A stretch of 64,000 bases of DNA from contig NZ_CP159837.1 of assembly GCF_040564635.1 (NCBI RefSeq), positions 2,901,001-2,965,000 of the forward strand, read 5' to 3'. The notes below the pieces were generated by a model. The model was not told where the DNA came from. It ran no database searches and was given only the letters and a program-made list of their open reading frames with translations. This document shows positions 36,573-47,499 of this stretch, piece by piece. The DNA comes from Planktothricoides raciborskii GIHE-MW2 (lineage in GTDB: Bacteria; Cyanobacteriota; Cyanobacteriia; Cyanobacteriales; Laspinemataceae). Every line of letters starts with the position of its first letter. The stretch's first letter is position 1. The translations under genes and the position numbers were made by a program.

Positions 36573-36629
36573 AATTTTTTTCCTGATTTAATTGATTTGA
36601 TAAGTATTACCAAATATTACCAAATATTA

Positions 36630-36912
36630 CCTTGTAGGGGCGAAGCATTGGGCAGATACCTCATGGGGAAAAACCCAAATTTTTGCCCCAATGCTTCGCC
36701 CTAATTTATGGAATAGAGAACCAACCAAAAATTAAGTTAAGGGCGAAGCATTCGGTGCGGAATTTTTTAGTTGTGATTCAGATATATTTTGCCCGAATGC
36801 TTCGCCCCTACAGGAATAAACCAGCCCCCAAATCAGAGAATTGTCGGGGCGAAGCATTGGGCAGATACGTCATGGGGAAAAACCCAAATTTTAGCCCCAA
36901 TGCTTCGCCCTA
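36630..36912. repeat. Three GCGAAGCATT hairpin elements upstream of csc1
   Basis: Copies at about 36634-36703, 36739-36811 and 36844-36911, each starting GGGGCGAAGCATT and ending AATGCTTCGCCC in inverted orientation, with variable centres of about 45 bp. The first and third have nearly the same centre (GGGCAGATACNTCATGGGG). Confidence 0.85.
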
Positions 36913-36986
36913 ATTTATGGAACAGTAACCCTCCACTTTATTCCACTATGCTATAATCGACGTAATTACCAATTTTCATTATAAAG

Positions 36987-37250
36987 ATGTCCAAATATTT
37001 AACGATTGCTGAAGCCCAAGAAAAACTGCCCGAATTAGCGGATGATTTGACCTGCGAACCTGCCATCATCACTAAAGAAGGCAAACCTGTGATGATTGCC
37101 ATGAGTTGCCAGCAGTTTGATTCTCTTTTGGAAACAATCGAAATTTTAAGCGATCGAGAATTTATGGCCGATTTAAAAGAGGGAATTAGACAAGCTGATT
37201 CAGGAGAAACCATTAGTTTAGATAACCTCAAAGCTGAATTAGGATTTTAA
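36987..37250 (+). CDS. Orphan antitoxin, Phd/YefM-like
   Basis: 87 residues with MSKYLTIAEAQEKLPELAD at the N-terminus, the Phd/YefM DNA-binding fold pattern, followed by PAIITKEGKPVMIAMSCQQFDSLLETIEIL. The C-terminal part (MADLKEGIRQADSGETISLDNLKAEL) is the usual toxin-binding tail. It is on the plus strand, opposite to the cas genes, between csc1 and csc2. Downstream only a very short frame (MDDINEYEVIK, from about 37259) is open, so no RelE/Doc-type toxin is present here. It may be a remnant of a toxin-antitoxin pair or a repressor acting elsewhere. Confidence 0.85.
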   Translation: MSKYLTIAEAQEKLPELADDLTCEPAIITKEGKPVMIAMSCQQFDSLLETIEILSDREFMADLKEGIRQADSGETISLDNLKAELGF

Positions 37251-37471
37251 TCAAAAAATGGACGATATTAACGAGTACGAAGTCATAAAATAACCAAAAA
37301 ATGAGCAAATAATGGGCAAATAATCGGCGATCGCTGCTGGTTTATTTTTTTATCTTTACCAATTTTTTATTTAAAGGAGATTTATGGGAAGCGATCGATA
37401 ATTTGATTTAAAAGACTGATTTAATCCTAGGGTGGGCAAAATTTTGCCCACCCTACGGGATTTTTTACGGG
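37251..37471. other. Gap between antitoxin and csc2
   Basis: No gene beyond the 11-codon frame noted with the antitoxin. A GGGTGGGCAAAATTTTGCCC hairpin at about 37431-37455, just past the csc2 stop codon, may act as its transcript end. Confidence 0.6.
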
Positions 37472-38473
37472 TTATTTGGCCGCCCTTGCTTCTTTAATAT
37501 ACTTTTTAGCATAAGCTTTCGCCTCATCATCCGCTTGCTTTAACAACGCTTTCAAACTTTCCTCATTGCCAATAATTGCCTTAACCTCCTGTAACAATGG
37601 GGTAAAACTTTCGCCAATAAAATCCGTATGCACAATAAACTCCTCTGCCATCAATTTAACAATAGCCTGCGTTGCTGCTGCGAATACCTCATCCTCATTT
37701 AATGGATCGGGAGAATGCAACATTTGCCCCGCTTTCATCTCATCATAAATAGCCTGAGTCCATTGCAAATTACTGGTAATTTCGCCATCGGCAAATATCA
37801 CCCCAATTAACTCATTGCGAACTCGTCCGGTTCGGGTAGTTTGTGCCCCATAATGCCGCGTCCGCAAGATATTATTAAACACATACAAGAAACTTGCCTC
37901 AGTCGGGTCTTTCAACGTGACAATACTGGGGAAAAATACCTGGGGTTTAATATGGTCTTGTTGGTTAATTCGGCTGGTGACTTCTCCTAATTTAGCACCC
38001 CCTTCTCCTTTAGAAGCCATTGTACCATTTTCAAACGGCGCATTCAGGGTAAAATTCTCGTGAGAATCATCAAAAGCAGTAATCGAAAAAGCCGTATCTA
38101 CCACCACTTTTGATTTTTCTGAACCCGACTCCCCGATCGCAAATCCATAGATAATACAATCAGGATTCTTCATGGCAAATTTGACATTATATTCGCATTC
38201 GTCTGCGGTCATTAAGCCATAATTCCGCAACAATTCCCGACCGACTAACCGTTCTGGGGTAGACTGTTTCCGCTTAAACATAGTTAAACGGCTGATAGGT
38301 TGCGGGTTAGCAATTCCTGCCCGAACTCGCGCCTTATTTAATTCCCCATCAGTTTGGAATAAAGGATAAGATTCAGTAATCCGCAGGGTGAGAAAATGGG
38401 CATATTTTCCCATCGGTTTATAGGGAATTTCACTGTGGAATTTTTGAGAATTGACGGTTTTTAGGAAAGACAT
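37472..38473 (-). CDS. csc2: Type I-D effector backbone Csc2 (Cas7d)
   Basis: 333 residues from ATG 38473 (MSFLKTVNSQ). This start is preferred over one 11 codons upstream because CAGGAGAAAAAA, a good ribosome-binding site, lies immediately before it (38478-38487). The sequence has the Csc2 pattern, including FKRKQSTPERLVGRELLRNY and TRHYGAQTTRTGRVRNELIGV. Several Csc2 copies form the filament along the crRNA spacer in the I-D complex. Confidence 0.95.
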   Translation of the reverse strand: MSFLKTVNSQKFHSEIPYKPMGKYAHFLTLRITESYPLFQTDGELNKARVRAGIANPQPISRLTMFKRKQSTPERLVGRELLRNYGLMTADECEYNVKFAMKNPDCIIYGFAIGESGSEKSKVVVDTAFSITAFDDSHENFTLNAPFENGTMASKGEGGAKLGEVTSRINQQDHIKPQVFFPSIVTLKDPTEASFLYVFNNILRTRHYGAQTTRTGRVRNELIGVIFADGEITSNLQWTQAIYDEMKAGQMLHSPDPLNEDEVFAAATQAIVKLMAEEFIVHTDFIGESFTPLLQEVKAIIGNEESLKALLKQADDEAKAYAKKYIKEARAAK

Positions 38474-38519
38474 AGTTTTTTTCTCCTGTTCTAAAACTTT
38501 CAACATTGTTCAACATTGT

Positions 38520-39180
38520 TCAACTTGTAGGGGCGAAGCATTGGGCAGATATTTTATGGGGAAAAACCAGAATTTTTGCCCCAATGCTTCGCCCTGATTT
38601 ATGGAATTAACCAGCCCCCCAAATGAGGGATTTGTAGGGGCGAAGCATTGGGCAGATATTTTATGGGGAAAAACCCACATTTTTGCCCCAATGCTTCGCC
38701 CTGATTTATCCATTGGGCAGATATTTTATGGGGAAAAACCAGAATTTTTGCCCCAATGCTTCGCCCTGATTCATAGCGGTTATTGTCCGAATGAAGTACA
38801 GAGATTTTCTGGATTCCCGCCTTCGCGGGAATGACAAATTTTTTTGTAATTCATAACTATGACAATCGCTATAGCAGTCCTAAATGATTTATAAAATCTG
38901 TCTTCTCCCCTCTCCCTCTCTGGGAGAGGGGGTGGGGGTGAGGGTCTTCCACAACTGATTTAGGATCGCTATAAAGAATAGGCAACAACCCAATTTGGGG
39001 GTTAGGGCGAAGCATTCGGGGCGGAAACTTGGGTTTTAATTCAGAGATGGTTTGCCCGAATGCTTCGCCCCTACGGGACGGGGATATCTCTGAAAATTTG
39101 GGGTTAGGGCGAAGCATTCGGGGCGGAAATTTTGGTTTTAATTCAGAGGTGATCTGCCCGAATGCTTCGCCCCTACGAGA
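38520..39180. repeat. Five GCGAAGCATT hairpin elements between cas10d and csc2
   Basis: Copies at about 38525-38592, 38633-38702, 38707-38766 (lacking part of the left arm), 39004-39075 and 39106-39176. The first three share a GGGCAGATATTTTATGGGG centre and the last two a GGGGCGGAAA...GGTTTTAATTCAGAG centre, so each set looks recently copied. Between them, 38767-38990 holds only a short hairpin (CTCTCCCTCTCTGGGAGAGGG near 38910) and no gene. Confidence 0.85.
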
Positions 39181-39186
39181 CGGGGA

Positions 39187-39669
39187 TTAATCATCCTCAT
39201 TTAATGGCTGATTTTCTTTATTTTCCTGGTTTTCCTTATCTTGGGCTAAACGATAGAGAAACTCGCAAGTATCGCGAATCAAATTAATTTGCCGACCGGC
39301 TAAACGACCGCGATCGCCTGCGAAAGATTTCTCAAACACTTCCTCCACAAAATAGCGGGCAAACTCTAAAATTTTCTGCCGTTCTATATCCCGTTCTTTG
39401 CTATTAAACATCCAGCGACCTTCCGCAGTAGAAGAATGAACCCGATCCATTAGCTTAGAAACTGCTGCTGCCACCGCATCAACTAACGCCTCACCCTGAA
39501 AACTAGGGTCAGCATTTAAAATAGTATTTGCGGCAATATCAATCGGTTTTAATACGGCATTCGCTTTGGGGCTAAATTGCTTATTTGCCCGGTAAAACTC
39601 GCGATAAAGTTCGGTTAATTTTTTCGGATGATTGAGTGGAGACTCTGGTGACTTAATTTCTAGGGACAT
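39187..39669 (-). CDS. cas11d: Internal small subunit Cas11d, in frame within cas10d
   Basis: Inside cas10d a perfect AGGAGG (39675-39680) precedes the in-frame ATG at 39669 by five bases. Translation from there gives 160 residues beginning MSLEIKSPES, all alpha-helical in character. It is known from type I-D and other systems that the small subunit is made by internal initiation within the large-subunit gene. Size, position and the unusually strong ribosome site match that. Translation has not been shown here. Confidence 0.85.
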   Translation of the reverse strand: MSLEIKSPESPLNHPKKLTELYREFYRANKQFSPKANAVLKPIDIAANTILNADPSFQGEALVDAVAAAVSKLMDRVHSSTAEGRWMFNSKERDIERQKILEFARYFVEEVFEKSFAGDRGRLAGRQINLIRDTCEFLYRLAQDKENQENKENQPLNEDD

Positions 39670-42666
39670 TAAATCCTCCTGATATTCTACATAAGGGTCA
39701 AAACAGGGATAAAACGCATAAGCATAAAGCTTAATTTTCTCAATTCGCGCCGTCTCTACCCCCTGACGGCGAACCCAGCGATTCAGATAATTAAAAACAT
39801 AAAGAGGGCTGGTTTGAAAATTCGTGGCTAACTCGACTAATTTACCCCAATTTGCATCATATCCCCCTTTACCTTGTTTAGCATTCACATCTAAATGAAT
39901 GGCATAAGCAGCAGTTAGCACATTTAACGGGGCAGGATATTTTTTCTGGTTTTCTTCCCACCCTTCTTCCCACCCTTCTAAGATATAATCCAACCGGAAG
40001 CGATCGCGCTGAGTCAAGGCTTGAATAGCTTGGGGTGGACTATCTAAAAACACCGTTTCTTCAAACTCTGCCCCATCATTAAACGGGGGAATAGGGGACT
40101 CAGAAACTACGGTTTTGACATCCAAAATCATGGGAAAAGCAAATGCTAACCAACTTGGCATTACCCAAGACTCCGTATCTTTAGCATCCTTTCCTGGAGG
40201 CAAGGCAATAAAATAAAAAGTCAGCGGTTGGTCTTCGGGATAAGATAGCTTAAAAGTGCGGTCTTTTTCTTTGTCCAATTGTTCATCAATTAAGAAACTA
40301 TCCACCGTCTGATATTGAATGCGATCGAATTTTGCCTGCCACTCCTTAGTAATAAAGTGATTCCGCAATGGGGCAGTAAACCGAGTTTGCGAAATATTGG
40401 TATAAGCAGCTTGGAGAAACTTATTCGTTTCTGGAGTAAAGTAATAAGTAGGATAAAAATAAAGATAGCGATAATTTCCATCTTCAAACCTTTTCCCTAC
40501 TGCCTGAGTTTGGTTCATTAAAATTTGCCGCAGCATCATTTCTACTCCAGCAATACTGGAAATATTCCGCTTGGCATTAGAACCCCCCAACATTTGCTTA
40601 TTGGTGTAAACTTGCGGAGTAAACAAAACCGCTGACTCCATTTGTTCTGTCACCGTATAAGCAGAATGGGAAATCGAACAAATTAACTGCCGTCCCCGTC
40701 CCGGTTTCTTTGCCAATTGATAACGGTCTAATTCATCAAGAAATACCTCCGCATTCTGAGTTATTGGGCTGGTTTTTCCTGGTAAAATAACCACCCGTTT
40801 TACCCAGTCCCGTAAATCATCCCAACCATCGGGTAATTTATACTGATTGAGAATAGGTTGAATCAAATTAGCCACATATTGAATTAATGTCTCGCAAGTA
40901 TCGCGAACATCCTCAAGTCCGGGATTTTGTTGGACATATTTGGCAGCTAAATAATACCACTCATAAGGAACTCCTCCGGTATTTCCTTTTAGTTTATGTT
41001 CTTTCAGGCTTTCATTAATTCGCTGAATTTCCCGAATAGGGTTTAAATAGGCTGACAATTGCCAAAATTTGGCAACTTCTGCCACAATATCCGGTAACTC
41101 AGGCAGTTGTTGCTGAGTCTTTTTATTCTGTTTACACAGTTTCTCGATTTCCGTGACGCGATCGCCCCATATTTTTCGAGTAACTAAATCCCCAAACTCG
41201 GCAATTTGGTCAATGCGAATATCATCATCAAAGCGGAAATCATACTCTGGGGATAATATCTGATTTTGCTGAAACTTGACTAAATTATCACTGCGACTTT
41301 TTGCCACCGAAGCTTTAGTCCCATGCAAAATCCTTAAAGTGGCAGCGAGTCCCACTTGCATCAAGCCAAATTCATCAAAAAATTGACTATAATATTCGGC
41401 ATATTTCATCCCCTTGCCGTCTCGACCAAACCCGGTTTGTCTGCGTTGCAACTGACCCCCACAAAGTTGTTTAATTTTCTTGACAACTCGTTCGGGAATA
41501 TCCGTTTCGGGAATAGCTGGCGCCTGCCGCATTGCCAGATAAATTACCCCCGTGGGCAAGTACAAAAGCGGTTTATAGTAACAACATTCGGCGGTATTTA
41601 TCGCTTCGTATGTTTCAATTAAAGCATTATTTACCACATTTGTTAAAACTCCGCGATTTTCCGCAATCCCATGATAGGTAAATTTTAAATTGCCATCACT
41701 GAGATTATGGAGAATATCATTTAATGTCCGATGTTCTGCATCTTGGGGATGTTTAATCACCGAAGCCATTAAATCAGCAATTCTAGTTAAATCCGCCAAA
41801 CTTCTTAGGGTTTTATCCCGGAGTTTTGGCTGTAACCCGTGTACAGAAAGATTCAGATTTGTATCATTTTTTGCTTGGGCATTATAGGCAACAAATAACA
41901 GATCGTCCAGATATTCTGACCAAGATTCTGGATTGGTGGAATCGATCAATTGATTAATCCCTAATTCGCGCACAATGACCGAAATAATTTCTCGGTGTTC
42001 TTCTAGGGATAACTTGCGAATATCCTGGGTAAAATCCCGCCGAATTGCCCGATATTTTTCCGGCATTTCCGGGAATAAGTCATAGTTAAATTTTTCAAAG
42101 TCATGGAGAATAAACCCAGCTACTAATAACCGACGTTCTCTGTCTTTGACTACCCGACAAACAGTAGTGTCAAATTGTTGTAAACGTCGTTCAATTAAAT
42201 TAGCGGGAAATAGTCCATTAAGTAGGTGAGTATTCAGAGATTGATCGCCCGCATTATCCCGTCTTATTTTATCTTTTCCTGCGGCTTCTCGCTGCTGGTC
42301 TATTTTGTCGAAAAACTTACCACCTTTGGCAGTAACTCCAATGGCAACCCGCAATAAGTTTGGCAGCACATATTCGGCAAAGTCTGCCATGACTAAATCA
42401 TTAGGATTTTGGGCGGTAATTGCCTCTCGTAATAGTTTCAGGGTGAGAAGTTCTGAGGGTGTTTCTATGGTGCGATCGCTGCTTTCTTCCGTAATTCCTG
42501 ACTCATCATAATCGATATCATCCAGGTCAACCTCATCATAATCCTCGATTTCTGCTTCTATTTCTGCTTCTATATAATTAGAAGCTGGATTTTCGGTTGC
42601 TTGATTTAAGTCAAACAACGAAAGTTGTTCGGTTTCCGTTTCTGATTGTTTGCGTTTTTTAGCCAT
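39187..42666 (-). CDS. cas10d: Type I-D large subunit Cas10d (Csc3) with HD nuclease domain
   Basis: 1159 residues from ATG 42666 (MAKKRKQSET); an upstream in-frame ATG at 42726 reads through repeat sequence and is less likely. An acidic low-complexity segment lies at residues 32-60. The HD nuclease motif is at His188-Asp189 (FILHDFEKF), with His147 upstream. A central Cas10-like region includes CSISHSAYT and AGVEMMLRQIL near residues 675-735, and a helical C-terminus follows. In type I-D this HD domain cuts DNA while Cas3 supplies only the helicase. The C-terminal 160 codons have their own ribosome site and can be made separately as Cas11d. No GGDD cyclase motif is seen, consistent with I-D rather than type III. 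Confidence 0.96.
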   Translation of the reverse strand: MAKKRKQSETETEQLSLFDLNQATENPASNYIEAEIEAEIEDYDEVDLDDIDYDESGITEESSDRTIETPSELLTLKLLREAITAQNPNDLVMADFAEYVLPNLLRVAIGVTAKGGKFFDKIDQQREAAGKDKIRRDNAGDQSLNTHLLNGLFPANLIERRLQQFDTTVCRVVKDRERRLLVAGFILHDFEKFNYDLFPEMPEKYRAIRRDFTQDIRKLSLEEHREIISVIVRELGINQLIDSTNPESWSEYLDDLLFVAYNAQAKNDTNLNLSVHGLQPKLRDKTLRSLADLTRIADLMASVIKHPQDAEHRTLNDILHNLSDGNLKFTYHGIAENRGVLTNVVNNALIETYEAINTAECCYYKPLLYLPTGVIYLAMRQAPAIPETDIPERVVKKIKQLCGGQLQRRQTGFGRDGKGMKYAEYYSQFFDEFGLMQVGLAATLRILHGTKASVAKSRSDNLVKFQQNQILSPEYDFRFDDDIRIDQIAEFGDLVTRKIWGDRVTEIEKLCKQNKKTQQQLPELPDIVAEVAKFWQLSAYLNPIREIQRINESLKEHKLKGNTGGVPYEWYYLAAKYVQQNPGLEDVRDTCETLIQYVANLIQPILNQYKLPDGWDDLRDWVKRVVILPGKTSPITQNAEVFLDELDRYQLAKKPGRGRQLICSISHSAYTVTEQMESAVLFTPQVYTNKQMLGGSNAKRNISSIAGVEMMLRQILMNQTQAVGKRFEDGNYRYLYFYPTYYFTPETNKFLQAAYTNISQTRFTAPLRNHFITKEWQAKFDRIQYQTVDSFLIDEQLDKEKDRTFKLSYPEDQPLTFYFIALPPGKDAKDTESWVMPSWLAFAFPMILDVKTVVSESPIPPFNDGAEFEETVFLDSPPQAIQALTQRDRFRLDYILEGWEEGWEENQKKYPAPLNVLTAAYAIHLDVNAKQGKGGYDANWGKLVELATNFQTSPLYVFNYLNRWVRRQGVETARIEKIKLYAYAFYPCFDPYVEYQEDLMSLEIKSPESPLNHPKKLTELYREFYRANKQFSPKANAVLKPIDIAANTILNADPSFQGEALVDAVAAAVSKLMDRVHSSTAEGRWMFNSKERDIERQKILEFARYFVEEVFEKSFAGDRGRLAGRQINLIRDTCEFLYRLAQDKENQENKENQPLNEDD

Positions 42667-43134: not shown

Positions 43135-43851
43135 TTACATCGTATCAGGGTCAATCCCTAATTCTCGGAGTTTTTCCGCAAGGCGATCGGCCCGTTGACG
43201 TTCGATTTCTGCGATTTGCCGTTCGGTTTCAGCCCGTTGACGTTCGGTTTCTGCCAGTTCTTCCGCGAGTTGCCGTTCGGTGTCTAATTCAATATAAGTT
43301 GAGAATTTTCGACCATCAGGACGATAAAGCTCTAACCCTTCATCACCCATTGCAAATCGCACTCCTAAGCGGGGAGAAACCCAACCATTGATAGTTTCAA
43401 TTGCCTCGAATTTTTCCCCTTGCCTCAGCCAACCGCAAAAGTCTATTTTATCCGGGTCATAGATATAGTATTCATCGACGCCATAGCGGAGGTAAAATTC
43501 CTGCTTTTTGGCCATTTCCGTCAAAGTATTGCCCGGAGATAATACCTCAAAAACCACTTGAGGGGCAATATTATCTTCTTGCCATTGCAAATAGGAACCG
43601 CGTTTTCCTTTGGGTCGCCCAAAAGCCACCATAGTATCTGGGGCTACGCGAATTTTATTGTTGCCCTCTACGGGATACCAAAGTAAATCCCCGGCGACAA
43701 ATACGTTAGGGTCATCTTTAAATAGGGCATCAATTCCCCCTTGAATTGTGACAATCCAGCGAAATTGTTCGGTGTTGTCTGCCATTGGTTGACCGTCGCT
43801 TTCAGGATAGATAATTTTTGTCTTGGCAGTGGGCTTAATTTCCGTAACCAT
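43135..43851 (-). CDS. Uma2 family (DUF820) endonuclease-fold protein
   Basis: 238 residues from ATG 43851 (MVTEIKPTAK), chosen because GGAGG lies six bases upstream; an ATG at 43863 overlaps that site. The core has RVAPDTMVAFG, PQVVFEVLSPGNT, KKQEFYLRYGVDEYYIYDP and a C-terminal coiled coil of repeated AETERQ/IAEIERQ units ending LRELGIDPD. These are typical of the large cyanobacterial Uma2 family. It lies between cas3 and cas10d on the cas strand, but Uma2 is not a known I-D component, so its place here is probably incidental. A broken relative is at 1929-2515. Confidence 0.9.
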   Translation of the reverse strand: MVTEIKPTAKTKIIYPESDGQPMADNTEQFRWIVTIQGGIDALFKDDPNVFVAGDLLWYPVEGNNKIRVAPDTMVAFGRPKGKRGSYLQWQEDNIAPQVVFEVLSPGNTLTEMAKKQEFYLRYGVDEYYIYDPDKIDFCGWLRQGEKFEAIETINGWVSPRLGVRFAMGDEGLELYRPDGRKFSTYIELDTERQLAEELAETERQRAETERQIAEIERQRADRLAEKLRELGIDPDTM

Positions 43852-43884
43852 TGCTGCCTCCATTTGGTGAATTATGACAATATT

Positions 43885-46614: not shown

Positions 46615-47499
46615 ATGACTCGCAAAGGTCAATCGATCACCTTGTCAATTTCTGCCAGAGATAAAGCCAAATTAGAAGAATTAGCCGTAGAACTAGGGAA
46701 AACCTGGGGCGATCGCCCGAATATTTCTAAACTGGTAGCAGCGATCGCCCGTCGCGAACTCCTAGTAAAACGCAATAATGACTGGGAAACCAGCCGCATT
46801 GATGCCTTAGAACAAGCCATGAACGCCCTAACGGACAATGGCAAAATATTAGAAGCCCAAGAAATTGCCCGTTTACTATTAGAACGTAGCGAACTTTCTA
46901 TCCCCTTGCGGCGAAAAATCGAAAATTTTCAAAACTCTCCACCCCCTGCTTGGCGAGTTACTTTAGATCGCTATATTACTCGCCAACAACCCTTTCAACT
47001 TTCCTACCAAGATGCCACGGGACGACCCTGGACTTTTACGGTCAGACACGCCCGCATTACCCTCCATGAAAAACGCCAACATCTTGATTGCTGGTGTGAA
47101 GAAACAGAGGGCAATTTAGACTTACCAGAATTACATCATAACTGGTCTTTACGCTTAGACCGAATTCCCGAAGCGGGCATTACGCCTATTGCGGGGAAAT
47201 GGCAGCCGAATTTGGATGAAATTGAGGTAGAAATGCACTTATTTGGCTGGTTTGCTTTTAGCTATGAAGGCACCCAAAGCGATATCGAAACGGAATTAAT
47301 TAATCCCAAGCCACCAGTTAAACGAGTAATTAGAAGAATCTATAATACTTACTGGTTTATCCGAGAAATTCTTAGTTTAGGCAGCAATTGTTTACTGATT
47401 GCTCCAGAAAATTTAATCGCTAAAATAAAAAAAGAAAGCATGAATTTGTATCAATTATATAATCTTCACAATCATCGTGAACATGATTTTGAAGATTAA
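46615..47499 (+). CDS. WYL-domain transcriptional regulator of the CRISPR locus
   Basis: 294 residues. The N-terminal 50 residues (QSITLSISARDKAKLEELAV) look like a ribbon-helix-helix DNA-binding segment. A helical linker follows, then a WYL-type sensor domain from about residue 125 (PFQLSYQDATGRPWTFTVRH, HLDCWCEETEG). WYL regulators are common next to cyanobacterial type I-D loci; the Synechocystis homologue sll7009 lowers crRNA levels of the I-D system there. By position and family this is probably the repressor of this locus. The last part (EILSLGSNCLLIAPENLIAK) is also typical of WYL proteins. Confidence 0.85.
   Translation: MTRKGQSITLSISARDKAKLEELAVELGKTWGDRPNISKLVAAIARRELLVKRNNDWETSRIDALEQAMNALTDNGKILEAQEIARLLLERSELSIPLRRKIENFQNSPPPAWRVTLDRYITRQQPFQLSYQDATGRPWTFTVRHARITLHEKRQHLDCWCEETEGNLDLPELHHNWSLRLDRIPEAGITPIAGKWQPNLDEIEVEMHLFGWFAFSYEGTQSDIETELINPKPPVKRVIRRIYNTYWFIREILSLGSNCLLIAPENLIAKIKKESMNLYQLYNLHNHREHDFED

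Follow-up and report, generated by a model that had tools for sequence, protein, structure and literature searches.

The locus described here raises the question of whether a strong ribosome-binding site inside a cas10d gene is the translation start of a second protein, the small subunit Cas11d of the type I-D Cascade. The DNA analyzed, called the window below, is a 64,000-nucleotide stretch of the Planktothricoides raciborskii GIHE-MW2 genome (7.2 Mb, one contig); the nearest named relative is Planktothricoides sp. SR001, with 98% identity over the queried end of cas10d. In type I-D systems, Cas11d arises from an alternative start within cas10d, the complex contains two Cas11d per Cas10d, and Cas11d is required for binding of double-stranded DNA, as described in PMC10212523, PMC9123187 and PMC11903412. 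An earlier note on this DNA had called internal translation of the small subunit established for type I-D, and these papers bear it out; because such translation is already published, the Planktothricoides case is known in kind.

The cas genes of the window were named by NCBIfam models. The features considered are as follows:

39675..39680, minus strand: AGGAGG, the putative Shine-Dalgarno hexamer upstream of the internal ATG, pairing with CCTCC of the 16S tail
39667..39669, minus strand: internal ATG, probable start of Cas11d; no other in-frame ATG, GTG or TTG occurs from codon -72 to codon +64
39187..39669, minus strand: putative cas11d, nested in the cas10d frame; 160 aa, with a mass near 18 kDa estimated from length; matches PDB 7sba_J
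39187..42666, minus strand: cas10d (csc3), TIGR03174, 1005 bits against a cut-off of 60
37472..38473, minus strand: cas7d (csc2), TIGR03157
35868..36572, minus strand: cas5d (csc1), TIGR03159
34938..35768, minus strand: cas6, TIGR01877
33972..34571, minus strand: cas4, TIGR00372
32893..33897, minus strand: cas1d, TIGR04093
44235..46412, minus strand: cas3' helicase, type I-D, TIGR03158
30003..31876, no strand given: CRISPR array with the 37-nt repeat GTTTCAATCCCTGATAGGGATTCTATATAGTTGCAAC; it may reach further left than the stretch searched

The type I-D features, namely Cas10d/Csc3, Csc1 (Cas5), Csc2 (Cas7) and a separate Cas3' helicase, thus occur in one locus, all above cut-off. The cas10d start is most likely the ATG at 42666-42664, which has a weak Shine-Dalgarno (SD) pairing of -4.2 kcal/mol, and cas7d likely starts at MSFLK, codon 11 of the listed open reading frame, with an SD of -7.4. 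Several 94-nt palindrome-like repeats (GGGCGAAGCATT...) occupy the extended intergenic stretches that separate cas10d, cas7d and cas5d (36616-39187); in two relatives, L039 and L100, cas10d and cas7d are close to each other. A Uma2-family gene (PF05685) lies between cas3' and cas10d at 43135-43863, with short repeats on its flanks. Adjoining cas3', a divergent 294-aa protein is encoded at 46615-47499; it has no match in Pfam or NCBIfam and is possibly a regulator of the cas locus.

On the minus strand, the internal start reads ...gaatatcAGGAGGatttaATGtccctagaa..., with AGGAGG at 39680-39675, the spacer ATTTA and the ATG at 39669-39667. The ATG is in frame with cas10d and lies 160 amino acids before the TAA stop (39187-39189), exactly the arrangement of hexamer, five bases and in-frame ATG, 160 codons before the end of cas10d, that the earlier note had read from the letters. 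The ATG is residue 1020 of the listed open reading frame, and the match to a solved Cas11d begins just downstream: residues 1032-1168 of the window protein match 7sba_J (Synechocystis Cas11d in the PDB, 146 residues) with an E-value of 2.5e-6.

By itself, AGGAGG-N4-9-ATG is not significant, since the motif counts are not decisive: the 64-kb window contains 2 matches against 3.08 expected, and the genome 191 against 113 for a reversed control pattern. Position changes the picture. An in-frame chance motif within a start region of about 30 codons would be expected in about 2 of 10,000 cases, an estimate that comes from the density of the 113 reversed-control matches on both strands of the 7.2 Mb. 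What rises above chance is the place of the site and the conservation of the module across relatives, not the bare motif. The distinction matters for the simplest alternative, in which AGGAGG-N5-ATG is a mere by-product of the Cas10d residues Gln-Glu-Asp-Leu-Met and has no role. Synonymous shuffles of this cas10d alone reach an equal SD pairing energy with P = 0.10 (0.135 with the start fixed), which together with the unremarkable motif count in the window is what a by-product would predict. A by-product would not, however, explain why the site falls just where the Cas11 domain begins, or why the family shows a synonymous bias to GTG and GAG exactly in this linker, as described below. We consider the by-product explanation very improbable.

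Relatives of cas10d were collected from three sources: a phylum-wide draw of 386 genomes (60 of them matching), contigs of named genomes (38 loci), and 388 genomes of the order searched with the Cas11d domain as query (159 with a match, 30 loci kept). The first set comprised 102 loci, of which 7 lacked a tblastn match to the last 299 residues. From the other 95 we dropped L028 (the same place as L063), L039 (frameshift), and L044 and L064 (broken genes), leaving 91, and merging linkers more than 90% alike gave 62 (50 close, 4 middle and 8 distant). An enlarged set added 37 further loci, two of which (L171 and L172) gave no linker, for a total of 64 non-redundant linkers. In the family test, each linker was represented by its best-paired start codon, judged by SD energy; the shuffles left both the encoded protein and the gene's codon usage intact, and a pairing of -5 kcal/mol or lower counted as good.

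In the two nearest relatives (L065 and L066) the internal site is unchanged, the sequence being identical to the window from 63 bases upstream to 50 bases downstream of the ATG; from base 50 onward, L066 differs from the window at 17 places along cas11d. At 60-74% identity the ATG is mostly absent, and another start is usually present in the CFD-NHP linker. The usual form is GGAG 8 or 9 bases before a GTG or TTG, which stands 8 residues before the histidine of the NHP motif. At this position the window has AAG, and its ATG lies five codons upstream of the AAG; for this reason, the Planktothricoides start appears to have been relocated by about five codons, the GTG of most relatives giving way to a closer-spaced ATG. 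Loss of the site in close relatives, which the earlier note had named as evidence against its reading, is thus not seen at the level of the genus. Beyond the genus the exact ATG is lost, but other modules substitute for it, mostly ones with GTG or TTG that lie about five codons downstream.

A good SD is found in 39 of the 50 close linkers, against a mean of 5.1 and a maximum of 11 in 1000 synonymous shuffles; these counts are not strict probabilities, because the relatives are not independent, but the gap is very wide nonetheless. The result is much the same without the window (38/49) and within the loci up to L064, which come from the genome draw only (17/26; null mean 2.2, maximum 8). Enlarging the set gives a start codon with a good SD in 52 of 64 linkers (1000 shuffles: mean 7.7, maximum 15), leaving 12 without one. 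Among 1956 other in-frame ATG, GTG and TTG codons of the same genes, only 8% have an SD of -5 or lower. Codon choice within the linker is biased as well: valine at positions 8-10 is encoded by GTG in 29/30 cases, compared with 632/2805 (23%) elsewhere, and glutamate by GAG in 54/120, compared with 1050/3732 elsewhere. The middle and distant groups (4 and 8 non-redundant rows) mostly have AAGGA, AAGGAG or AGGAG before the start codon; there the protein sequence itself favors an SD, so synonymous shuffles cannot separate them. Three distant loci (L045, L047 and L048) are misaligned at the start, with an ATG just downstream, and thus their weak SD scores mean little. Taken across the family, the data strongly support synonymous-site selection that would keep an equivalent start module in this linker.

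The conserved module also bears on a different origin of Cas11d, either as a proteolytic fragment of Cas10d or as the product of a separate internal mRNA, and not by initiation on the cas10d mRNA itself. Such routes are compatible with the sequence, and for comparable short products in type I-B fragmentation had at one time been suggested, according to PMC11899642. Proteolysis would leave the conserved SD and start codon unexplained, and as for an internal transcript, the minus strand shows no promoter-like match from the site to 41253, and with 6 such matches the region has fewer than the shuffles (9.0). In our judgement this origin has very little chance of being the right one. We are instead highly confident that the site is the translation start of Cas11d, as the earlier note had proposed; homology to 7sba_J, the identity in L065 and L066 and the family-wide start module all strongly support that proposal.

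In some relatives, cas11d is also found outside the cas10d frame. Hydrocoleum sp. CS-953 has two extra cas11d frames directly after cas10d (L151:984-1926 and L169:5711-6653; also L075); in both, the ATG corresponds by homology to the internal start and is preceded by AAAGGAG. Pairing of the SD is -7.8 in the free-standing copies and -5.6 in the one within cas10d. In protein, the three copies share 70-86% identity, with dN/dS of 0.22-0.44, indicating purifying selection. L151 and L169 were placed on the L075 contig by an identical stretch; this is a draft contig, interrupted by assembly gaps at whose edges sequence is repeated, but the copies differ, with no N between them. From these sequences, the Hydrocoleum case shows the internal start-to-stop stretch apparently behaving as a gene of its own. 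In G500 (L170:2845-3378), cas10d has a frameshift about 50 codons before the internal start, which may be a real split or a sequencing error, and the cas11d frame is intact, with AAGGAG-N8-ATG. In the metagenome-assembled genome PMM_0008 (L100, CASBRD010000329.1), one cas10d frame of 1278 codons ends in two tandem, diverged Cas11d domains, about 45% identical, an arrangement seen in no other of the 91 first-set loci. Another locus, L039 (G056), was considered as a natural split of cas10d at the internal start and rejected: the frameshift is about ten codons after the internal ATG, within the shared frame, where it breaks both the Cas10d C-terminus and Cas11d, and so it is no evidence for a separate cas11d.

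A further question is how strongly the site would be used. The 16S tail of this genome, present in 3 copies, reads GGATCACCTCCTTT, and its pairing with the internal AGGAGG, at -10.3 kcal/mol, is the strongest among the cas starts examined in the window. The other values (in kcal/mol) are -4.2 for the cas10d start, -7.4 for cas7d, -4.3 for cas5d, +3.4 for cas6, -3.8 for cas4, -8.3 for cas1, 0.0 for cas3' and +2.9 for the likely start of cas2. On paper, therefore, the internal site is much better than the start of cas10d itself, as had been claimed. The same tendency is seen in relatives: in 45 of the 50 close linkers (excluding L075, L089, L033, L036 and L084, which is open-ended), the internal SD is stronger than that of the best main-start ATG in 31, weaker in 13 and tied in 1 (Wilcoxon P 0.004). 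Predicted openness of the mRNA at the internal site hardly departs from the gene average (0.44 versus 0.43) and lends no support; the mRNA is predicted to be more open at the cas10d start, which weighs against stronger internal initiation.

We infer initiation at the internal ATG, its rate and the assembly of the product into the complex from the sequence, from homology to the solved Cas11d and from the conserved start module. Some ribosomes on the cas10d mRNA would begin at the weak start of cas10d itself and produce the full-length protein; others would bind the internal AGGAGG and initiate at the ATG five bases on, yielding the C-terminal domain of Cas10d as a free protein of 160 residues. 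Such free Cas11d copies would lie along the belly of the complex, next to the C-terminus of Cas10d. It is plausible that the better SD puts Cas11d in excess, which fits the ratio of 1 Cas10d to 2 Cas11d given in PMC9123187. Cas11d could also be translated here and yet not be in excess despite the strong SD, its dosage being set by assembly and degradation. In favor of this, the domain is kept although a good SD is missing from 10 of the 23 first-set linkers that carry an ATG, and in E. coli profiling SD strength was uncorrelated with translation efficiency (PMC7043885). Against it, an SD raises expression in cyanobacteria (PMC6847405), and the complex does contain two Cas11d per Cas10d (PMC9123187). 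We regard the absence of an excess as somewhat improbable.

Start codon and SD appear to be related. A good SD accompanies 26 of 27 linkers without an ATG versus 13 of 23 with one in the first set (Fisher P 0.001), and 35 of 36 versus 17 of 28 in the enlarged set. The window alone, among the first 50 close linkers, combines an ATG with an SD of -7 or lower; L170 comes near it in the enlarged set. A tentative reading, which we place a little short of probable, is that a slot of about 15 codons keeps one good Cas11d start across cyanobacterial type I-D systems, acting as a dial of dosage. Within this slot the codon (GTG, TTG or ATG), its position and the SD would turn over and compensate for one another, and the unit would sometimes be copied out as a true gene, as in Hydrocoleum, or joined in tandem, as in PMM_0008; AGGAGG plus ATG in Planktothricoides would be the strongest setting in the group.

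For one more type I-D system, a likely Cas11d boundary is now set from sequence alone. The GTG or TTG start in most of the cyanobacterial relatives examined matters for annotation and for cloning a separate cas11d for use in eukaryotes, and the turnover of start codon and SD, with the free-standing duplicates, makes tuning of Cas11d dosage testable. Apparently new are the Planktothricoides site, the GTG/TTG rule with its turnover, and the free-standing copies, none of which was found in the portions of the type I-D literature examined. At the level of titles and abstract beginnings, no publication was recognized on cas11d start codons or on free-standing or duplicated cas11d in type I-D, which leaves absence unproven; McBride et al. 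2020 (Mol Cell), reportedly the primary paper on type I-D Cas11d, is known to us only via citing papers.

Among known systems, the closest comparison is with the type I-D Cas11d of Synechocystis sp. PCC 6803 (PDB 7sba and 7sbb), where the homologous C-terminal domain of Cas10d is translated separately, as proposed here. In Synechocystis, the ATG lies 146 codons from the end of cas10d, with AAGGA upstream; the Planktothricoides SD is stronger (-10.3 versus -5.2), and its start lies about seven residues earlier relative to the domain. The two Cas10d proteins are only distantly alike. Cas11c and Cas11b of types I-C and I-B also come from an in-frame internal start in the gene for the large subunit, cas8c or cas8b (PMC7684278 and PMC11899642); there, however, the large subunit belongs to another family, and the likeness drawn here is that of the published descriptions.
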